Part shown: one piece after another, positions 51,058 to 61,452 of the stretch
Position numbering within the stretch: the first letter of the stretch is position 1
Layout of the letters: every line of letters begins with the position of its first letter
Assembly (NCBI GenBank): GCA_015709495.1
Contig: CP054189.1
Span: 1,488,001 to 1,552,000, forward strand
Length of the DNA stretch: 64,000 nt
From: Chthonomonadaceae bacterium
GTDB taxonomy: Bacteria > Armatimonadota > Fimbriimonadia > Fimbriimonadales > Fimbriimonadaceae
Direction: 5' to 3'
The notes under the pieces: generated by a model
What the model was told of the DNA's origin: nothing
The model's database searches: none
The model's input: only the letters and a program-made list of their open reading frames with translations
Program-made: the position numbers and the translations under genes

Positions 51058-53424
51058 TCACTCGCCCGAAGGCGCCCACACGTTCTTGACCTGAACCGAA
51101 CGGCGAACGATCTCGCGGCAAAGCGCGCCGTTGGGGTCGGTCCAGTCGTAATCGCAATCCGGAACGGCCCAGGTTTGCTTCAGGTTGCCAGCGGAGAGTT
51201 CCAGACACCGCACAACCGACTCGGACGAACCGAAGTGCCATAGGGCGTCGATATCGTCGTGCGCGGCCAGGACCTCGGCCAATTCGCCTTCGAGCCCCGT
51301 GACCACGTTCCAGACTCCCGGCATCACGTCGGAAGCCTCGAGGACCTGAACGAACTCGGCGGCAGGGATCGGACCCCGCTCCGAGGGAACGAGGATGACG
51401 GCGTTGCCCAGAGCTACCGCCACAGCCCCCAGCGAAACGAAAGGCAAAAAGCTGGGAGAGGGCGGGCAGACCACAGCGATGACCCCCACCGGTTCGTTGA
51501 GCGTATACGTGAGGCCCCGGAAGGGGGTGCTGTGGACCGCCCCGTCGTTCTTATCGGCCCACGCCGCAGCATCGAAAAGCCTCTTGAGTGTTTCGTCCAC
51601 CTGCTCCCCAGCGGCCCGAATCCCGTACCCCTCGGTCGCGGCGATGAGCTTCTCGATCGAATCGCGGCGCGAGGAGAGGTTCTCAGCGAGGTAGTAGAGA
51701 ACCTGGGCGCGCAAGTGGGACGACTGGTTCTTCCCTCCTTCGTGCGCCTTGCGGGCCGATTCGACGGCGTTGCGAACATCCTTGCGGTTGCCTCGCGCCA
51801 CCTCGCCGAGCCGCTCGCCCTGACTGGCCTTGACTTCGAGGGAGTACCCCTGGTCGGGCCGCGCCTGTTTGCCGCCGATGTAGTGCTTGTAGGTTCGGTC
51901 GAGCTGGGCCGTGAAGCCCATCGGGCTGACCGGGTGGGGTTTGGGGGGCTTAGCCTTCGCAAGGGGCGGGATCACGTATTCGAGCAGCCCTTCGAATCCT
52001 CCCTCACGCCCGAAGCCGCTCTCCTTATACCCGCCGAAGCCCGAGGCGGCGTCGAAGAGGTTGGTCGAGTTGATCCATACGGTCCCCGCCTTCACCTGGG
52101 CCGCAACGTCGAGCGCGAGGCTGAGGTTCTCGGTCCAAACGCTCGCCGCTAACCCGTACACGGTGTTGTTGGCGAGTTCGACCGCCTCCTTGGGCGTTCG
52201 GAAGGGCATCGCCACCAGAACGGGGCCGAAAATCTCGATCTGCGCGACCGTCGAAGCGGGCGCAACGTTCGTCATGAGCGTCGGCGGGTAGAACCAGCCC
52301 TCTTTCGGGCACGCTCCAGGGGGTTGGTACATCACCGCGCCCTCTTCGACTCCCGCCTTGACGAGGCTCTCGATCCGCTCCAACTGCACGGGCGCGACGA
52401 TTGCGCCGATGTCGATCGATTTGTCGAGGGGGTTGCCGACGCGCAAAGCGTCCATCCTTCGCCGGAGCTTCTCGCAAAACCGTCCTTCGATGCTTTCTTG
52501 AACCAGCAAACGCGAGCCCGCGCAGCAAACCTGCCCCTGATTGAACCAGATCGCGTCCACGATGCCTTCGATGGCGCTGTCCCAGTCCGCGTCCTCGAAG
52601 ACGATGAACGGCGACTTGCCCCCCAATTCCAAGCTCAACCGCTTTCTCGTGCCGGCGGTGGCTTTGCGGAGGATTCGTCCCACTTCGGTCGATCCAGTGA
52701 AAGCGATCTTGTCGACGTCCGGGTGTTCGACGAGCAGTCTGCCGGTGTCGCCGTCTCCGGTGACCACGTTGACGACACCCTGCGGAACCTCGGCTACTTG
52801 GCAGATTTCAGCGAATAGGAGCGCGGTGAGCGGGGTGAACTCTGCGGGCTTGAGGACCACGGTATTTCCCATCGCGATCGCTGGCGCGATCTTCCACGCG
52901 AGCATCAGCAACGGGAAGTTCCAAGGGATGATCTGCCCGCAAACGCCGACCGGCCAGCAACCGGGCAGCCTCGCAGGCATGAGCTGAGCCCAGCCAGCAT
53001 GGTGGTAGAAGTGGCGCGCTACGAGCGGTACATCGAGGTCGCGCGTCTCGCGGATGGGCTTGCCGTTGTCGAGCGTTTCGAGCACGGCAAAGAGCCTCGC
53101 GTGCTTCTGAACTTGGCGGGCCAGCGCGTAAAGAACTTTCGCTCGTTCATGCGGAGACGACTCTTGCCAATCGGGCTGCGCCTTTCTTGCCGCAGCCACC
53201 GCCCGCGCCACATCCTCCTCCGTGCCTTGCGACACCTGGGCGAGAACTTGCTTGTCCGCAGGGTTGATGCAGTCGAAGACCGGGCTGCCTCCCGGTTGGG
53301 TGAACTTGCCGTCGATAAAGTGCCCAAACGTCCCACCGTGCGATTCGATCCATTGCCGAGCCAACTGCGCGTCCTCAGGCGCGGGTCCGTAGGGCAATGG
53401 GTCATAAAGCGTGGCAAGGTCCAT
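51058..53424 (-). CDS. Aldehyde dehydrogenase 16-type, two ALDH domains
   Basis: This 788-residue protein has two tandem ALDH domains. Domain 1 (about 45-490) is complete: 'PWNFPLLMLAWKIAPAIAMGNTVVLKPAE', 'FTGSTEVGRIL', 'LELGGKSPFIV' (catalytic Glu) and 'NQGQVCCAGSR' (catalytic Cys). Domain 2 (about 510-788) keeps the NAD-binding-like region ('PVGVIAVVCPPSPSFLPFVSLGAVAVALGNAVILVPSE') but lacks a catalytic Cys/Glu pair, as in human ALDH16A1. Total length matches ALDH16. Substrate unknown. Confidence 0.9.
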   Translation of the reverse strand: MDLATLYDPLPYGPAPEDAQLARQWIESHGGTFGHFIDGKFTQPGGSPVFDCINPADKQVLAQVSQGTEEDVARAVAAARKAQPDWQESSPHERAKVLYALARQVQKHARLFAVLETLDNGKPIRETRDLDVPLVARHFYHHAGWAQLMPARLPGCWPVGVCGQIIPWNFPLLMLAWKIAPAIAMGNTVVLKPAEFTPLTALLFAEICQVAEVPQGVVNVVTGDGDTGRLLVEHPDVDKIAFTGSTEVGRILRKATAGTRKRLSLELGGKSPFIVFEDADWDSAIEGIVDAIWFNQGQVCCAGSRLLVQESIEGRFCEKLRRRMDALRVGNPLDKSIDIGAIVAPVQLERIESLVKAGVEEGAVMYQPPGACPKEGWFYPPTLMTNVAPASTVAQIEIFGPVLVAMPFRTPKEAVELANNTVYGLAASVWTENLSLALDVAAQVKAGTVWINSTNLFDAASGFGGYKESGFGREGGFEGLLEYVIPPLAKAKPPKPHPVSPMGFTAQLDRTYKHYIGGKQARPDQGYSLEVKASQGERLGEVARGNRKDVRNAVESARKAHEGGKNQSSHLRAQVLYYLAENLSSRRDSIEKLIAATEGYGIRAAGEQVDETLKRLFDAAAWADKNDGAVHSTPFRGLTYTLNEPVGVIAVVCPPSPSFLPFVSLGAVAVALGNAVILVPSERGPIPAAEFVQVLEASDVMPGVWNVVTGLEGELAEVLAAHDDIDALWHFGSSESVVRCLELSAGNLKQTWAVPDCDYDWTDPNGALCREIVRRSVQVKNVWAPSGE

Positions 53425-53457: not shown

Positions 53458-54057
53458 ATGTCTCCCGAACTGCGCCTAGAACCGATCGTTCTTGCCGGAA
53501 CGTACGTGCGCCTGGAGCCCCTCCGAGCCGATCATGCGCCCGCCCTCTTGGAGAGTTGCCGCGACCAGGAGATTTGGCGATGGATGCTCATCGAGCAGCC
53601 CACCACGCTCGAAGCGATGCAGGATTGGCTGAGTCGTGCCCTGCGCGATCAAGACCAGGGACACGGTTTACCCTTTATACAAATCGATCCCCCGACAGGA
53701 GGGGTCATCGGCACGACCCGGTACATGGACGTCCGGCCGTACGATCGATCTCTGGAGATCGGCTGGACTTGGCTCGCGCCTACCTTTCGAAGGACCGCCG
53801 CCAACACCGAAAGCAAGTACCTCTTGCTCGAACACGCGTTCGAGAGGCTGGGAGCGAAGAGAGTGCAACTCAAAACGGATGTCCGAAACGAGATGTCTCG
53901 AACGGCGATTGAGCGAATCGGCGCGAAGTTTGAAGGCGTCTTGAGGAACTACCAGCGACGCTTTGATGGAACGGTTCGGGATACGGCGATGTACAGCATC
54001 ATCGACGCTGACTGGCCCCAAGCGCGTGAGGCCCTTCGATCGAGGCTCAGTTCCTAG
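53458..54057 (+). CDS. RimJ/RimL-like GNAT acetyltransferase
   Basis: This is a 199-residue protein. 'IVLAGTYVRLEPLRADHAPALLES', 'GVIGTTRYMDVRPYDRSLEIGWTWLAPTFRRTAANTESKYLLLEHAFE' and 'KTDVRNEMSRTAIERIGAKFEGVLRNY' are the GNAT motifs A/B of the N-terminal amino-acid/ribosomal protein acetylase-like group. The frame extends upstream over the ALDH gene, but the ATG 53458 fits. Its last four bases CTAG are shared with the convergent deoC. Confidence 0.87.
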   Translation: MSPELRLEPIVLAGTYVRLEPLRADHAPALLESCRDQEIWRWMLIEQPTTLEAMQDWLSRALRDQDQGHGLPFIQIDPPTGGVIGTTRYMDVRPYDRSLEIGWTWLAPTFRRTAANTESKYLLLEHAFERLGAKRVQLKTDVRNEMSRTAIERIGAKFEGVLRNYQRRFDGTVRDTAMYSIIDADWPQAREALRSRLSS

Positions 54058-55028
54058 GGCATCGGGTGCCGGTGGTAAGCTGAGTAGCGCCCGGTCCAGG
54101 CCATTTCGAGTTGTCGTTCGATGTCGCTCAGGAGGCTGCTGGCGCCGATTCGGAAAAGATCGGGCCGCAGCCATGCGTCGCCCAACTCCTCTTTCATCAG
54201 GATCATCCATTCGAGCGCGGACTTCGCGGCACGGATTCCCCCTGCAGGCTTGAAACCGACCTGATACCCGGTGCGCTCCTGGTAGTCTCGGAGCGCTCGA
54301 ACCATCGTCAGTCCCACGGGCAACGTGGCATTGACAGTTTCTTTGCCGGTTGACGTTTTGATGAAGTCCGCGCCAGCCATCATGCATACAAGGCTTGCCT
54401 TGCCGACGTTTCGCAGCGTCCCCAAGTCGCCCGTTCCCAGAATCGTTTTGAGGTGGGCTTGCCCGCAAGCCTCTCGAAACGCCGCTACCTCGTCGAAGAG
54501 CCTCTCCCACTCGCCGCGAAGCACCAGGCTGCGATCGATTACGATGTCGATTTCCTCCGCTCCGAAGTCGATGGCCGCGCGAATCTCGTCGACGCGAGCC
54601 GAAAATGAACTCAAGCCATGGGGAAAACCCGCGGCGACCGCAGCCACCGGAATCTTTGAGCCCTCAAGCGCATCGACGGCGTCTCGAACCCTTGCGGGGT
54701 AGACACAAACGGCGGCCACCTTGAGCTCGAGGTCGAATCCGAGACCCCGCAGGATGTCCCCCCGAACGGGGCTTCGCGCCTTCCAGCAGAGTCGGCGCAC
54801 GTTCGAAGCGGAGTCGTCACCGCTCAGCGTCGTCAGGTCGATCAGCCCGATCGCTCGGAGCAACCACGCCGTTTGCCAAGACTTTTTGACCGTGCGCCTG
54901 CCCGGAAGCGTCGCCACCCTGCGTTCGATCGCGCTGGTGTTCGCGCGGACCTGCGCCACCCAGTCGAGATCGAGGCTGCACCCCAGGTTGCGCCCCAGAT
55001 TGGGCGTTTGCGTGAAAGGACTCGACAT
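54054..55028 (-). CDS. deoC: Deoxyribose-phosphate aldolase
   Basis: This 324-residue class I aldolase cleaves 2-deoxyribose 5-phosphate to glyceraldehyde 3-phosphate and acetaldehyde. The Schiff-base lysine is in 'ADFIKTSTGK', and 'EIDIVIDRSLVLRGEWERLFDEVAAFREAC', 'LKTILGTGDLGTLRNVGKASLVCMMAG', 'VGFKPAGGIRAAKSAL' are conserved. The size (324) is like the longer DERA type with a N-terminal extension of about 70 residues. TACAAT is 8 nt before the ATG. Acetaldehyde produced could be oxidised by an aldehyde dehydrogenase such as the nearby ALDH16, an inference. Confidence 0.94.
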   Translation of the reverse strand: MSSPFTQTPNLGRNLGCSLDLDWVAQVRANTSAIERRVATLPGRRTVKKSWQTAWLLRAIGLIDLTTLSGDDSASNVRRLCWKARSPVRGDILRGLGFDLELKVAAVCVYPARVRDAVDALEGSKIPVAAVAAGFPHGLSSFSARVDEIRAAIDFGAEEIDIVIDRSLVLRGEWERLFDEVAAFREACGQAHLKTILGTGDLGTLRNVGKASLVCMMAGADFIKTSTGKETVNATLPVGLTMVRALRDYQERTGYQVGFKPAGGIRAAKSALEWMILMKEELGDAWLRPDLFRIGASSLLSDIERQLEMAWTGRYSAYHRHPMP

Positions 55029-55036
55029 TCTCCAGC

Positions 55037-55042
55037 ATTGTA
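55037..55042 (-). promoter_or_regulatory. -10-like box TACAAT for deoC
   Basis: TACAAT then 8 nt then ATG 55028 on the minus strand. It faces the plus-strand box at 55080. Confidence 0.45.
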
Positions 55043-55079
55043 GCGGATCGGTGGGCGGTCCGCAGCGCTTCGACCGAAG

Positions 55080-55085
55080 CATAAT
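55080..55085 (+). promoter_or_regulatory. -10-like box CATAAT for ATP-grasp gene A
   Basis: CATAAT then 6 nt then GTG 55092. It deviates from TANNNT at the first base. Confidence 0.3.
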
Positions 55086-55091
55086 CGTCTC

Positions 55092-56081
55092 GTGATCTAT
55101 TACCTGGCGACCGAGAAGGGCCGAGGCGCGATTCACCGGCATTACGAGAGATACGCGCACTCCTTTTCGCGGGTCGTTCAGGAACTCACCTACGATGAGA
55201 TTCTGAGAAGAGGGAAGGCGCCTGCGGGAACTTACATCTTTGCCGATTACGGCGCGATGAATCCCGTTCAGTGGAAGCTGGCGGGGCAGCTCTGGGAGGT
55301 TATCCGGCAGGGTTCGCCGGAGTCGCTGTTGATCAACCACCCGGCGCGGGTCCTGACACGCAAGCATCTCCTAAAGGGCCTTTTCGAGCAAGGGCTCAAC
55401 AGGTTCAACGCGTACGCCCTCGACGAGCCCCTCGCCGGGGTTCGGTTTCCAGTCTTCTTGCGGACGGGCGCAGGGCACTCTGGAGCGCTTTCGGGACTTC
55501 TGAACAGCCTCGAAGAGGTTCGAACTCACGCGGACCGGCTGATCTTGGCGGGGATGGATCCCAAGAATCTGCTCATTGTCGAGTTCGAAGACACGTCGGA
55601 CGGACAGGGGCGGTTTCGCAAGTACGGAGCGTTTCGAATCGGAGGATCGATCTTGCCGAGGCACCTTTTCGTTTCGCGCCATTGGGAGGTGCGCTTGGGC
55701 GTTGCTGAGGACTCCGAGTCCGTTCAAGATGAGGAGCGCCGGTACCTCGATTCGGAGGAGCACCTTGGGAAGATCATGTCGCTTTTCGAGTTCGCGGGGA
55801 TCGAATACGGGAGGCTCGACTACTCGCTCGTTGGAGATTCGATTCAGACTTGGGAGATCAACGACAACCCCAACCTGTTGCCAGAACGTAACTCGGTCTC
55901 GCCAGAAGCTTGGCGGAACTGCATCGAGTTCGGCGAACGTTATGAGCGGGCTATGCGCGGATTGGATCGGCCTGCGAGCGGCCCTGCAACGGCGCTCGCG
56001 GCCGAGGGGTTCGGCGAGGTCGCGTGGGCGGCGCTGCACGAGTACTTTTCGATCCCTCCGAGAGGGGAGGCGAGAGGGTGA
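55092..56081 (+). CDS. ATP-grasp-like protein A of a tandem paralogous pair
   Basis: This 329-residue protein starts GTG (VIYYLATEKGRGAIHR). Residues 1-90 resemble a Rossmann-like pre-ATP-grasp lobe ('TYIFADYGAMNP', 'LLINHPARVLTRKHLLKGLFEQGLNRFNAY'). The body shows 'RFPVFLR', 'LLIVEFEDTSDG..RFRKYGAFRIGG' (strand pairs typical of ATP-grasp) and the Mg-binding 'IQTWEINDNPNLL' (E255, N257, N259). It ends with a 40-residue tail not shared with B. The ligase substrate is unknown, and I do not recognise a named family. Gene B starts inside its stop (GTGA). Confidence 0.72.
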   Translation: MIYYLATEKGRGAIHRHYERYAHSFSRVVQELTYDEILRRGKAPAGTYIFADYGAMNPVQWKLAGQLWEVIRQGSPESLLINHPARVLTRKHLLKGLFEQGLNRFNAYALDEPLAGVRFPVFLRTGAGHSGALSGLLNSLEEVRTHADRLILAGMDPKNLLIVEFEDTSDGQGRFRKYGAFRIGGSILPRHLFVSRHWEVRLGVAEDSESVQDEERRYLDSEEHLGKIMSLFEFAGIEYGRLDYSLVGDSIQTWEINDNPNLLPERNSVSPEAWRNCIEFGERYERAMRGLDRPASGPATALAAEGFGEVAWAALHEYFSIPPRGEARG

Positions 56082-56962
56082 TTCTGTATATTGCCACGCC
56101 GAACAACCTGAACACTATCGGTCATTTGATCGAAGAGTGGGTTCCCGACTTGGCGGGGCTGATTCGAACGTTGCGATACGATCAATTAGTTGAGGTGGAG
56201 AGCCTTCCGGATGCAACATATCTGTTCGCCGATCTTGCCCGCCTGATAGACCCCGCGCGAGAGGTCGTCAAGCGCTTTGCGGATCGGGTCGCCCTTGCGG
56301 GACACAGGATCGTCAACGATCCGAGGGTCGCAAAGGGCCGCTACGAACTTCTCAGGGGCCTTTTTGAGTCGGGGCGAAACCCGTTCAACGCGTATCGGCT
56401 GAGCGAGTTTCCAAGGGAAGTGCGCTTCCCAGTGTTCGTTCGTCTCGAACGGGATCACAGCACGTCGGAGAGCCCGCTCCTCGAGAACCGAGCGGACTTG
56501 GACGAGTATTTGGTCCTTGCGCTCCTTCATGGCCTCGACCCCAATGATCTCCTCGTGATCGAGTTCGAGGACGTTGCGGATGAGCGCCGCGAGGTTTCGA
56601 AGTTCGGCGCGTTTCGCGTGGGGGGCCAAGTGCTTCCGCGCCACTTGCTTCGAGGCTCGCACTGGGCGCAACGGGTGGCTCTTCGGAGCCCAACTTTTCG
56701 GCTGATCGAGGATGAACGCGCATATTGCGAATCCAACCCTCATCAACAGGTGATTCTCGACATATTCAACTTTGCAGGGTTGGAATATGGACGAATCGAC
56801 TACTCGATGAAGGGTGGGAAGGTCGTCACATGGGAGATCAACGACAACCCGATGCCCATGTCGGCGCGGTCGGTTTACACCGCCGAGCACCTCCCCCACC
56901 AAGAGCGGTTTGCAGAGGCATTGGCCGCCGCGCTCCGCGCGTTGGATGAGAAATCGGGATAG
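56078..56962 (+). CDS. ATP-grasp-like protein B of a tandem paralogous pair
   Basis: This 294-residue protein starts GTG 56078 in the tail of gene A. It is clearly related to A: 'TYLFADLARLIDP', 'GRYELLRGLFESGRNPFNAYRLSEFPREVRFPVFVRLE', 'LLVIEFEDVADERREVSKFGAFRVGGQVLPRHLLRGSHW' and 'FNFAGLEYGRIDYSMKGGKVVTWEINDNPMPMS' (E253, N255, N257) align with the same segments of A. The shared C-terminal Mg-binding motif suggests both keep catalytic function. The pair ends 38 nt before the convergent transketolase gene. Confidence 0.72.
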   Translation: MILYIATPNNLNTIGHLIEEWVPDLAGLIRTLRYDQLVEVESLPDATYLFADLARLIDPAREVVKRFADRVALAGHRIVNDPRVAKGRYELLRGLFESGRNPFNAYRLSEFPREVRFPVFVRLERDHSTSESPLLENRADLDEYLVLALLHGLDPNDLLVIEFEDVADERREVSKFGAFRVGGQVLPRHLLRGSHWAQRVALRSPTFRLIEDERAYCESNPHQQVILDIFNFAGLEYGRIDYSMKGGKVVTWEINDNPMPMSARSVYTAEHLPHQERFAEALAAALRALDEKSG

Positions 56963-57000: not shown

Positions 57001-59004
57001 TCAGCGGATTGCCCCCTCAGGCGTCAGGAGCGATTCCGCCTTGCGGGCGATGGACTCGGGTTCGATACCGAGTTCCCTCATGACGACGTCGCCTGGCGCG
57101 GACGCCCCAAACCGATCGATCCCCACGTGCGCCTGCGCATACTTCGACCAGCCCCAGGTGGCTCCGGCTTCGACAGAAAGAGTCGGAATCTCAGGCGGCA
57201 GCACGCTCTCCCTGTACTCCCGGTCTTGCTCCTCGAAAAGCTCGCAGCAAGGCATGCTGACGACCCTTGCTCCACGTCCGCGATCCGCGAGGATGCGGGC
57301 GGCCTCAAGGCAAGGGGCCACTTCGCTTCCGGTCGCGAGCAGCGTGACCATAGCAGGCAGTTCCGGCTCGTGCAGGACGTACGCGCCGCTTCGAGCGGGG
57401 TGGCGCTCGATGTCTTCGCTCGAAATCGCAGGAACGCCTTGCCGAGTTAGGACCAAGCAGGAAGGCCCCGCGCTTCGCCGCAACGCTTCCAGCCAGCACG
57501 CTGCGGTCTCGTTGCCATCGGCGGGCCTAAAGACAAACAGGTTGGGCATTGCACGCAGACTCGAAAGTTGCTCGATGGGCTGGTGGGTCGGCCCGTCCTC
57601 GCCAAGACCGACAGAATCGTGCGTGAAGACGAACAGGCTGGGGCAATGCATAAGTGCCGCAAGCCGGATCGCCGGGCGGCAGTAGTCGCTGAAGATGAGG
57701 AAGGTGGCCCCGTACGCGCGCAGGCCTCCGTGCAAGTTCATGCCGTTGACCGCGCATGCCATCGCGTGTTCACGAACGCCGAAGCAAAGGTTGCGGCCTT
57801 CGGGCGACGTCGGCTGAAACGCCGGGCTCTGCGCAATCCAAGTGTTGTTGCTCTCGGCGAGGTCCGCGCTTCCGCCGAGGAGTGCGGGAATCGGGCCAGC
57901 AAGAGCCTGAATGACCTTGCCGCTGGCAGCGCGAGTGGCAATTTTGGAGTCAAACTTGAGCAAATCGACTGCAAGTCCGACAGGAAGCTCCCTTCGGAGG
58001 GTTCGAGTTAGCTCCTGGGCTTCCCTCGGGAACGCTTGCCTGTAGGCGTCGAGAGCTTCGGTCCATTCGCGCTCCCACGTTTCTCCCCGGCCGAGGCTCG
58101 CGCGGAAGTGCTCGAGGACGGGTTGTGGGACCCAAAAGGCGGTGTCTTCCGGGAGGCCGAGCGCGCGCTTAGTGAGTCGAACTTCTTCTTCCCCAAGCGG
58201 GGCGCCGTGCGACGCTGACTTGCCCGCCTTGTTGGGGCTCCCGAACCCGATCTGGGTCGGGCAGACGATTAAGGAGGGCCGGGCGGTCTCGGCGATGGCC
58301 TCATCGAGGGCCCGGCTCACCCGGTCGACGTTCATGCCGTCTTCGAGGCGGATCACCTGCCAATTCAGCGCCTCGAACCTCCCTCCGACCTCTTCGGTAA
58401 AGGTGATATCGGTCGAGCCGTCGATCGAGATTTCGTTGTCGTCATAAAGACAAATCAGCTTGCCGAGCCGCAAGTGCCCAGCAAGCGAAGCGGCTTCGTT
58501 GGTGACGCCCTCCATGAGATCGCCATCTGAGCAGATCACATAGGTTCGGTGGTCGACGATCTCATGGCCCGGACGGTTCCACACCGCGGCGAGATGCTTC
58601 TCCGCGATGGCCATCCCTACCGCCGTCGAAAAGCCCTGGCCGAGCGGCCCTGTAGCCATCTCCACTCCCGGCGTGAGCGTGTTTTCTGGGTGCCCGGGCG
58701 TCCTGCTCCCCCATTGCCGAAAGGCCCGCAGGTCGTCGAGGCTAAGGTCGTAGCCGGTCAGGTGCAATAGAGCGTAGAGGAGCATCGAGCCGTGCCCTGC
58801 GGACAGGACGAACCGGTCCCGATTGAACCAAGACGGGTTGCGGGGGTTGTGCCGCAGGTGCTGGGTCCAGAGAGCGTAGGCCATCGGCGCGGCTCCGAGA
58901 GGCATTCCCGGATGGCCGCTGGCGGCTTCCTGCACGGCGTCGATCGCGAGCCCTCGGATCGTATTGACGGCGAGCGCGGCGAGTTCGGTCGAGGGGTCAT
59001 GCAC
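57001..59004 (-). CDS. tkt: Transketolase
   Basis: This 667-residue thiamine diphosphate enzyme is part of the pentose phosphate pathway. '[56 protein letters not shown]', '[12 protein letters not shown]', '[24 protein letters not shown]' (ThDP/Mg site) and '[20 protein letters not shown]' are all intact. GTG start at 59004, with TAGATT 7 nt upstream. It would use xylulose 5-phosphate from XylB. No transaldolase nearby. Confidence 0.97.
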
Positions 59005-59070: not shown

Positions 59071-61452
59071 GTGCTTGGCCTCCCGTTGTTGCTGGCTTCG
59101 GTTCTTTGCCTCCCGGACCCTTCGCAAGGGAGAAGCGGCGTTTACGTCGCCCCCGGAGCGGAGGCTCAGTCTTGGGCGATCAATTCTAATCGAACTGTGA
59201 TCTGGCAGGGCCAGCAGTACGTGCCTTTAGGTGCGGTCCTACCGGGTTCACCGGTCGAAATCGCTCAGGCCGCTGCGTCGGGGATCAAGGACGTCGCGGT
59301 CGAGCTTCCGGCGGGCGGGATGGGTTGGGAAGCGGCGTTTCAGTCTTTGGAAGCTGGAGGGCTGCGCTATATGCTGACCCTCTCCTCGCTCGCGCCCGGC
59401 CCTTATGGCGTCGCTGTCGAACCTCAGGGCTACCGATTCACCGGAATCACGAACGACCGCCACATCGAATTCACGGTCCCCGGCGCTGATCGCGCGCTGG
59501 CCTTCTTGGTGACGCAACGGGATGGCGCGGTGCAGGAGCGATACAGTGTCGCGACCCCCGAAGGGAGGTTCTCGCTCGACGTAAAGCCCCGAACGGAATT
59601 GGAACACGTCCTCATCGTTTACCCAGTGCTTCAGAGCCACAAACTGATCGATTGTTGGGATCGCTTCGACGAACATCGCGACGAACTGCTCCAATCGCTT
59701 CGCAGCCACCCTCCCGGCCCTGGGCTGAGGGGAATTGTGAACCCATTGGGCCGTGTGATTCGGATGCGGGCGCAGCGGACGTTCGTCCCGACGAGCGGCT
59801 TCTTCCGAATGGAGCTTCGGGCTTATTTGGAGTTGCGATACCGGACGGTTGAGACCGTTCAACGGGCATGGTCGATGAGCGCCTCGGGCCTTTCTTCGTT
59901 CGAGGACCTCGCGAAGCTGGTTCCTCTTTGGTCCGGCTCGCGGGGCCTGTCGCTGCTTCTCGATCCGGATTCGGGGAAGACCTACCCCTGCGAGTCCCGG
60001 CGCAGCGCGATCTGGGACGATCTCGAAACGGTGATCAACGACGCGATGGTCAAGCGGTTTTCTCGGTTGACGCAAGCGATCAAGAAGGTGTGCAACGTCC
60101 CGGTGATTCAGGATTGGGAAGGATGGGCTTCGCCCTATGAGTCGGGCAGGGTCGCCATGGACGGGCTGGGCGCGCGGGTCGATGGCCTCTCGCCTTCCCT
60201 GATTGCGGCGAGCGCGGGACCTGTGGCGAGTTCGACTTCGAGGTGGTCGGAATCGGGTCTGATGATCGCGACTGAAGTGGGCGGATTGGGAAGCGCTCCC
60301 GATACGAACTCGCTGCTTGGCGCGGTGGAAGACCTGCTTTCACTGGGGTTCAGGGGTTTCTACTTCCGGGCTAGCGGGCGGAGCGTCCTCGAAGCGATCG
60401 TTCAGATCGCCGAGCGCGTTCAAAGCGACAAGAGCCTATCGCTCCGGACGTTTCAGGCGCTGTATTATCCCGAAAGCGCCGCTTATCCGGCAGTAACGAT
60501 GAAGCTTCCTGGAGGTTACTGGTGGCTCCCCTCGCCCGCACCTGGAGACCGCATCGACCTGGGGCGCAGCTTCTTCGCCTACAGGTTCGCTGAACCGGGC
60601 AATGAGTTTGTGGCGCTATGGACGCGGGGACCCGCCGGAAGGATCAAGTTGCGGTTCCTCGATTCGAAGAACCTCACGTTTCAGGCCGTCGACGGCACGG
60701 ACCCCAACCCGAAAAACGTTCGCGGCGGGGTCGAAGTCAACGTCGGGCCGCTGCCGCTCGTGATCCGGGGGACGCAAGAGTTCCCGATCCCTGAGCCGGC
60801 GTACCAAGAGGCCGTTGCGCGGTTCGATGCGCTGCTGCTCGCCGCCGAAGAACGAAGGATCGACGACACGGAATTCCGCTTCCTCTTTCGCGACGCCTTG
60901 AATGGGTTTGAGCGCAATCCGGGCGGGAGCTTTGGGATCATGCGGCAACAGGTGATCGCTCTCGGTTCGAGGCTGGGCGGGTGGAATTGGATCGAGGCTG
61001 AAAACGTGCGAGATACCTCGTTCAGCGAGATCGTCGAAGCTCCCGGAACCAGCGGCCGAGGCGCCCTCTCGCTCTCAACTCCGTTCGACAACCGAGGCGA
61101 GCGCTACTTCGCCGAGTACTCGTTCTTGCCGAGGAGCAACGCCGACCTCGAAGTCTGGATCGCTGCAAGGATCGAGCCCATCTATCGCAAGGCGGTGACC
61201 TTGGAGATCGGAGGACAGATTCTTCGAATCCAAGGCGATCCGATTAGCTACTACGGGCGGCAGTTTGGGTGGTACCGATTGGGGCTCACGCGCCTCGAAC
61301 CCGGACAGACCAAGCTCACGCTTTGGGTCGATGGCCTCGAAGGGATCGACGTGCAGATCGACGCGATCGTGCTGTATCCGGGGCAGTTCTCGCCCATCGG
61401 ACCGATGCCCCCTGATTTCGCGGTGGGCCCGAGCCTACTTTCGGTTCGGTGA
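59071..61452 (+). CDS. Large exported protein, possible glycoside hydrolase-like
   Basis: This 793-residue protein has a short signal peptide (LGLPLLLASVLCLPDPSQG). The middle (about 190-450) looks like a TIM-barrel enzyme of the beta-galactosidase type: 'FFRMELRAYLELRYRTVETVQRAWSMSASGLSSFEDL', 'VCNVPVIQDWEGWASPYESGRVAMDGLG', 'GFYFRASGRSVLEAI'. The C-terminal ~200 residues are beta-rich with 'WNWIEAENVRDTS' and 'TLEIGGQIL', like carbohydrate-binding modules. Family is tentative. It overlaps the convergent lipoprotein by 18 nt. Confidence 0.55.
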   Translation: MLGLPLLLASVLCLPDPSQGRSGVYVAPGAEAQSWAINSNRTVIWQGQQYVPLGAVLPGSPVEIAQAAASGIKDVAVELPAGGMGWEAAFQSLEAGGLRYMLTLSSLAPGPYGVAVEPQGYRFTGITNDRHIEFTVPGADRALAFLVTQRDGAVQERYSVATPEGRFSLDVKPRTELEHVLIVYPVLQSHKLIDCWDRFDEHRDELLQSLRSHPPGPGLRGIVNPLGRVIRMRAQRTFVPTSGFFRMELRAYLELRYRTVETVQRAWSMSASGLSSFEDLAKLVPLWSGSRGLSLLLDPDSGKTYPCESRRSAIWDDLETVINDAMVKRFSRLTQAIKKVCNVPVIQDWEGWASPYESGRVAMDGLGARVDGLSPSLIAASAGPVASSTSRWSESGLMIATEVGGLGSAPDTNSLLGAVEDLLSLGFRGFYFRASGRSVLEAIVQIAERVQSDKSLSLRTFQALYYPESAAYPAVTMKLPGGYWWLPSPAPGDRIDLGRSFFAYRFAEPGNEFVALWTRGPAGRIKLRFLDSKNLTFQAVDGTDPNPKNVRGGVEVNVGPLPLVIRGTQEFPIPEPAYQEAVARFDALLLAAEERRIDDTEFRFLFRDALNGFERNPGGSFGIMRQQVIALGSRLGGWNWIEAENVRDTSFSEIVEAPGTSGRGALSLSTPFDNRGERYFAEYSFLPRSNADLEVWIAARIEPIYRKAVTLEIGGQILRIQGDPISYYGRQFGWYRLGLTRLEPGQTKLTLWVDGLEGIDVQIDAIVLYPGQFSPIGPMPPDFAVGPSLLSVR

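Follow-up and report, generated by a model that had tools for sequence, protein, structure and literature searches.

Two adjacent genes, here called A and B, stand alone on the plus strand between a deoC-like gene and a transketolase gene (tkt) in the window (the whole 64,000-nucleotide stretch of DNA that was analysed). The host genome consists of one contig of 2.9 Mb and is 99.6% complete. The sequence features of the gene pair are:

55029..55091, no strand: 63-bp gap between gene A and the divergent deoC-like gene
55092..56081 (stop included), plus strand: gene A, ATP-grasp protein of 329 aa, GTG start
56060..56077, plus strand: purine-rich, Shine-Dalgarno-like stretch upstream of gene B, GAGAGGGGAGGCGAGAGG before the GTG
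56078..56081, plus strand: GTGA stop/start overlap of A and B
56078..56962 (stop included), plus strand: gene B, ATP-grasp protein of 294 aa, GTG start

The longest mechanical open reading frame (ORF) of gene B has 312 aa; we took the 294-aa GTG start instead, because it gives the overlap with gene A and aligns with the relatives. Translation of A and B is likely coupled through this overlap, and the putative ribosome-binding stretch of B appears purine-rich and strong. The deoC-like gene, as read from its ORF, starts at 55028 on the minus strand and diverges from gene A, while the convergent tkt ends at 57001, 38 bp from gene B; any promoter of the pair must sit in the 63-bp gap or within deoC. 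The two proteins share 37% identity over 277 aa (BLASTP, E 4e-61). An earlier sequence-only reading of this DNA had described two adjacent, related genes of 329 and 294 residues overlapping by GTGA, and these ORFs are present as it stated. The motifs it listed as shared lie in register in the BLASTP alignment, and the paralogous pair it proposed is real.

Beyond deoC lies a 199-aa GNAT-like acetyltransferase ORF (window 53458-54057, plus strand), which is convergent with that gene and about 1 kb away from gene A. The neighbour beside tkt is a 793-aa glycosidase-like gene (window 59071-61452), which is kept in relatives (L077, L079 and L080), unlike the ATP-grasp pair. On the minus strand, window 51058-53424 encodes a 788-aa protein whose single chain reads as two aldehyde dehydrogenase domains.

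Predicted fold and active site

Enzymes of the ATP-grasp type couple an acid and an amine at the expense of ATP, and they are the source of many amide-bonded metabolites, cofactors and protein tags. In ligases of the group of LysX, RimK and Ddl (D-alanine-D-alanine ligase), a carboxylate is converted into an acyl phosphate and then into an amide bond. We modelled both proteins with AlphaFold2 (pLDDT 87.4 and pTM 0.87 for A, 91.0 and 0.89 for B) and compared folds with Foldseek and VIA-align; one input alignment for modelling was made up of window and retrieved-locus sequences only. Residues ~296–329 of A form a poorly modelled tail. The best structural match of both proteins is LysX (3vpd; Z 17.2 for B and 16.6 for A). 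LysX, RimK, ArgX, glutathione synthetase and Ddl match both models over nearly the full chain (Z 13–17), with RimK at about 16–17 and glutathione synthetase, the inositol-phosphate kinases and Ddl at 13–15. Foldseek places model B at E 4e-10, but at a TM of only ~0.55 (range against solved structures ~0.5–0.6). An ATP-grasp fold extends over the full chain of A and of B by all three tools, and on these models both proteins almost certainly adopt it. The ATP-grasp-like character read from the letters is thus borne out by the structure prediction that had been proposed as its check, both models matching LysX/RimK at Z about 17.

Assignment to a family is another matter. Against Pfam and NCBIfam, neither A nor B has a match at E 10; this covers the RimK/LysX family (TIGR00768, PF08443), whose curated cut-off neither protein reaches, as well as the Ddl family and graspetide models. 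PHROG and PADLOC models do not match A or B either (the PADLOC comparison covered six family members at E 1, all without a match), in agreement with the earlier view that the proteins belong to no recognised family. A phmmer search of the PDB with B returned no match. A known anti-phage defence gene was rejected for want of a PADLOC match, and a literature search for ATP-grasp with Fimbriimonas found nothing. A broad family profile detects Thermus thermophilus LysX (E 3.7e-6) and Ddl (E 5e-4), and a close-family profile reaches Ddl only at E 0.2. Weak to moderate RimK-model matches occur in the divergent members L036, L025 and L062 and in the longer L050 and L057. The values among divergent members are 1.2e-6 for Pfam RimK (above cut-off) and 1.2e-8 for TIGR00768 (below cut-off), and L036 is the only one of the relatives scanned to pass Pfam RimK.

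Two stretches of gene B carry the residues of the putative active site:

56423..56443, plus strand: RFPVFVR, whose last residue, Arg122, aligns with the ATP-binding lysine in the RAGNYA strand of LysX
56786..56851, plus strand: YGRIDY...TWEINDNP, with a Ddl-like Arg239 and the metal ligands Asp241, Glu253 and Asn255

No active-looking member in the residue table departs from Arg122, and in the alignment to 3vpd the linker lysine of LysX falls on Arg88 of B. The arginine of the LysX motif DIRVF aligns with Gly177; A, B and the close family have Gly, Ala or Ser at this position together with Arg239, and profile alignment puts Arg239 of YGRIDY in the place of the Ddl GRxD arginine. In four divergent members (L025, L036, L048 and L062) the arginine is instead at position 177, and position 239 is Gly or Ala; this arginine switch is a single split in the tree rather than many events. 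Asp241, Glu253 and Asn255 (B numbering) are all kept in 28 of the 30 tabulated members, the exceptions being two degenerate partners. The acidic residue and E-x-N expected in the last strands of an ATP-grasp metal site are found in B and, as equivalents, in A, as the claim that both proteins retain their metal-binding residues implies. We infer that Mg-ATP binding persists in both proteins. Their chemistry could nevertheless differ from that of LysX or be lost, because both LysX ATP lysines are replaced by Arg, the LysX catalytic arginine is Gly177 and Arg239 lies elsewhere. Phosphotransfer instead of ligation is possible, since the inositol-phosphate kinases share the fold.

Spread and genomic settings of the family

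Family members were matched in 14 of the 291 genomes of the phylum (9 of 156 genera). Outside the phylum they occur on plasmids of Deinococcus sp. QL22 and Paracoccus sp. MC1862, on contigs with phage structural genes (L068–L072) and on two large contigs of a viral collection (L093, 138 kb, and L094, 65 kb). PHROG 3287, a virion structural protein, is matched by a neighbouring gene in L072 (E 4e-64) and in L068 (8e-63). The GenBank phage set gave no family match, the viral collection gave none when scanned with the divergent subfamily, and a single-protein genome scan found one relative only, a Fimbriimonadaceae MAG (L023). The spread outside the phylum is a lower bound, covering plasmids, phage records, viral contigs and one single-protein genome scan. 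The family is patchily spread, and is also found in phage contigs and on plasmids. In L068–L072 the ATP-grasp gene, mostly accompanied by a glycosyltransferase family 2 (GT2)-like gene, lies on the opposite strand to the structural genes and appears to be a moron. As read from translations, the L093 member stands beside an oxygenase-like ORF (L093:5761-7324), and that of L094 near a glycosyltransferase-like ORF (L094:5998-9580).

The position between deoC and tkt, which had been thought informative, tells little about function: only this species has the pair, and the relatives read lack it next to tkt. We therefore rejected deoC–tkt as a functional neighbourhood. On the corresponding side of their tkt, these relatives have other genes, which makes the pair look like a species-specific insertion. 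One genome (G122) has a single family member ~3.3 kb away from tkt on the opposite side of that gene, and we take this as coincidence. Such confinement, together with the occurrence of the family in phage contigs and on plasmids, would suit recently acquired, functionless genes in transit with mobile elements. However, a second genome of the species (G135) also carries both frames intact, with dN/dS values of 0.17 in A and 0.27 in B, so that purifying selection maintains both genes in two genomes of the species. Their G+C (60% and 58%) is also close to that of the surroundings (62%), and we regard functionless acquisition as improbable.

Conservation across Armatimonadota was the other check proposed with the sequence-only reading. 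The family is sparse in this phylum. Tandem pairs recur at five loci overall (the window, L024 in the same genome, L029, L033 and the phage contig L070). The second gene of L024 also begins on a GTGA overlap, and within-pair identity is 38% in the window, 40% in L029 and 78% in L070. Pairs seem to have arisen more than once, since the L029 copies fall into different groups of the tree, whereas the two copies of the window fall together, though not with strong support. Pairing is not obligatory, because members often occur singly and in settings unrelated to one another. The equivalents of Glu253 and Asn255 have been lost from the second copy in L024 and L033. In the tree the degenerate partner of L024 groups next to A, but its branch is very long and we do not rely on this placement. 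Some form of cooperation between A and B is plausible, because pairs recur, some of them with a dead partner.

These dead partners in sister loci make a heterodimer of one active enzyme and an allosteric or scaffolding partner a serious, if unlikely, alternative. The dead copies of L024 and L033 resemble each other (E 4e-9) and have been retained, that of L024 at a dN/dS of 0.11, but this value comes from only 8 changes, and in the window pair the metal ligands are complete in A as well as in B, so that neither looks dead.

No symporter, glycosyltransferase or peptide gene stands beside the window pair, so the hints to a substrate come only from its relatives. A linked small peptide or transporter had been suggested as something to look for, and none exists at the window locus, where the flanks measure 63 and 38 bp. 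This bears on RiPP-type maturation, by which paired graspetide-like ligases such as those of microviridin would cross-link a ribosomal peptide. Some microviridin-like loci do have two ATP-grasp genes, and in a graspetide survey the precursors were first or second neighbours of ≤150 aa (PMC8939145). The graspetide ligase PsnB is also among the fold matches. Beside the window pair, where deoC and tkt follow the short flanks, no precursor gene of that size is a first or second neighbour, and A and B differ from the microviridin-type ligases in family as well, no graspetide model matching at E 10. A graspetide system was rejected on the missing precursor, and maturases of this type are highly improbable.

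Among the relatives, an SDF-family symporter gene lies directly upstream in L024, L031 and L033 (Pfam SDF, 1.6e-60 or better), whose ATP-grasp genes form one clade (support 100/99). In the NCBIfam comparison, made for L024 and L033, the nearest model is the glutamate/aspartate symporter GltP (3e-30 and 2e-33, below cut-off). These three loci, which represent two genera, have an operon of symporter, ATP-grasp and dead ATP-grasp genes (L024:5319-8554, in the window's own genome at C1:1763318-1766553; L033:5381-8364; L031:6000-8167, where the dead copy is absent). In Paracoccus, the family member is part of an exopolysaccharide cluster and is flanked by a flippase and an O-antigen ligase. Members in phage contigs adjoin GT2-like genes, of which the one in L072 matches Pfam Glycos_transf_2 (4.6e-19) and the others are read as its homologues. 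Among the divergent members, a trio of a Methyltransf_24 gene, a gene without a Pfam match and an ATP-grasp gene is conserved in L025:4462-7075 and L036:1489-4077.

RimK- or tubulin-ligase-like modifiers would add amino acids such as glutamate to a host protein and make no dedicated small molecule. The closest folds, RimK and LysX/ArgX, act on a protein tail or carrier, and the L029 pair, directly followed by a GNAT acetyltransferase gene, resembles the ligase–GNAT operons read as peptide ligation and capping (PMC4431377). Such a role is nonetheless unlikely here: the genome has no LysW-type carrier, and the glycosyltransferase neighbours of the phage and plasmid members suit a glycan acceptor better.

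Proposed function

On balance, we favour the reading that A and B are two active Mg2+/ATP carboxylate-amine ligases of one uncharacterised ATP-grasp family, working in one pathway. That both are active ligases is probable, and the carboxylate-amine chemistry would follow from the families matched. Their action in a joint pathway, for which recurrent pairing and synthesis from one overlapping gene pair argue, is somewhat less assured. Each protein would use ATP to phosphorylate a carboxylate, and attack of an amine on the acyl phosphate would yield an amide. Successive or mutually dependent ligations would be the simplest reading, because linked ATP-grasp ligases often carry out successive ligations (PMC4431377). 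Of the interpretation first drawn from the letters, the fold, the metal site, the lack of a family and the paralogous pair have thus held, whereas the deoC–tkt setting and the linked peptide or transporter have not.

The substrate is perhaps an acidic amino acid put on a peptide or a surface glycan. The Glu/Asp-type symporter of the sister operons tentatively suggests an acidic amino-acid donor, and a surface-glycan acceptor, to which the glycosyltransferase and exopolysaccharide neighbours of remote members point, is more tentative still. It is speculative, though conceivable, that this is an undescribed, horizontally moving family with Lys-to-Arg changes at both ATP sites, a Ddl-type arginine and operonic pairs ranging from two active-looking copies to one active-looking and one dead, which would give bacteria and phages a new amide-bonded surface or peptide product.

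ATP-grasp families without an assigned model can conceal new chemistry, and this one is a good target for a new amide-forming reaction because it is unstudied, patchy, phage- and plasmid-borne and repeatedly paired. Handles for testing are the small protein pair, the sister operon with its symporter, the series from active-looking to dead partners and the phage-borne copies beside glycosyltransferases. The family would also reveal whether an ATP-grasp site functions with Arg replacing both usual lysines.

Comparison with known ligases

The R2K (CDC123) clade resembles the A/B family in being a divergent ATP-grasp group with altered ATP-binding residues and glycine loop, in a patchy spread attributed to transfer, and in having some operon-linked ligases and some with GNAT genes (PMC4431377). 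In R2K proteins the lysine of RAGNYA strand 2 is absolutely conserved and a second Lys/Arg follows just downstream in the loop (PMC4431377), whereas A and B have Arg both in that strand and at the linker position, which is not lost and in some divergent members is Lys. We rejected R2K/CDC123 membership, since all active-looking members have Arg122 instead of the conserved lysine.

LysX/ArgX (TIGR00768) share with A and B the fold over nearly the whole chain, the subdomain order, the N-rP motif before the linker, the metal ligands and a similarity detectable by profile (E 3.7e-6 to T. thermophilus LysX, 3vpd). They differ in the two ATP lysines and the D-x-R arginine of LysX, in whose places B has Arg88, Arg122 and Gly177, and no RimK-family model matches A or B. 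The LysW carrier (TIGR01206), found in control genomes, is absent from the window's own genome, and a LysW-dependent LysX role was rejected on that ground.

RimK, the poly-alpha-L-glutamate or S6 modification ligase (5zct, 7qys), is like A and B in fold (Z about 16–17) and possibly in an acidic amino-acid donor, at which the symporter of the sister loci hints; A and B match no RimK model and have a Ddl-like GRxDY arginine, not one of the RimK/LysX type. Ddl is likewise similar in fold (Z about 13–14), and its C-terminal GRxD ... E-x-N-x-x-P is aligned by profile, although its family model does not match and its strand lysine is arginine in A and B. No model covers the A/B family; fold matches, profile matches to LysX and Ddl and the RimK matches of divergent members together place it beside the RimK/LysX/Ddl part of the superfamily.
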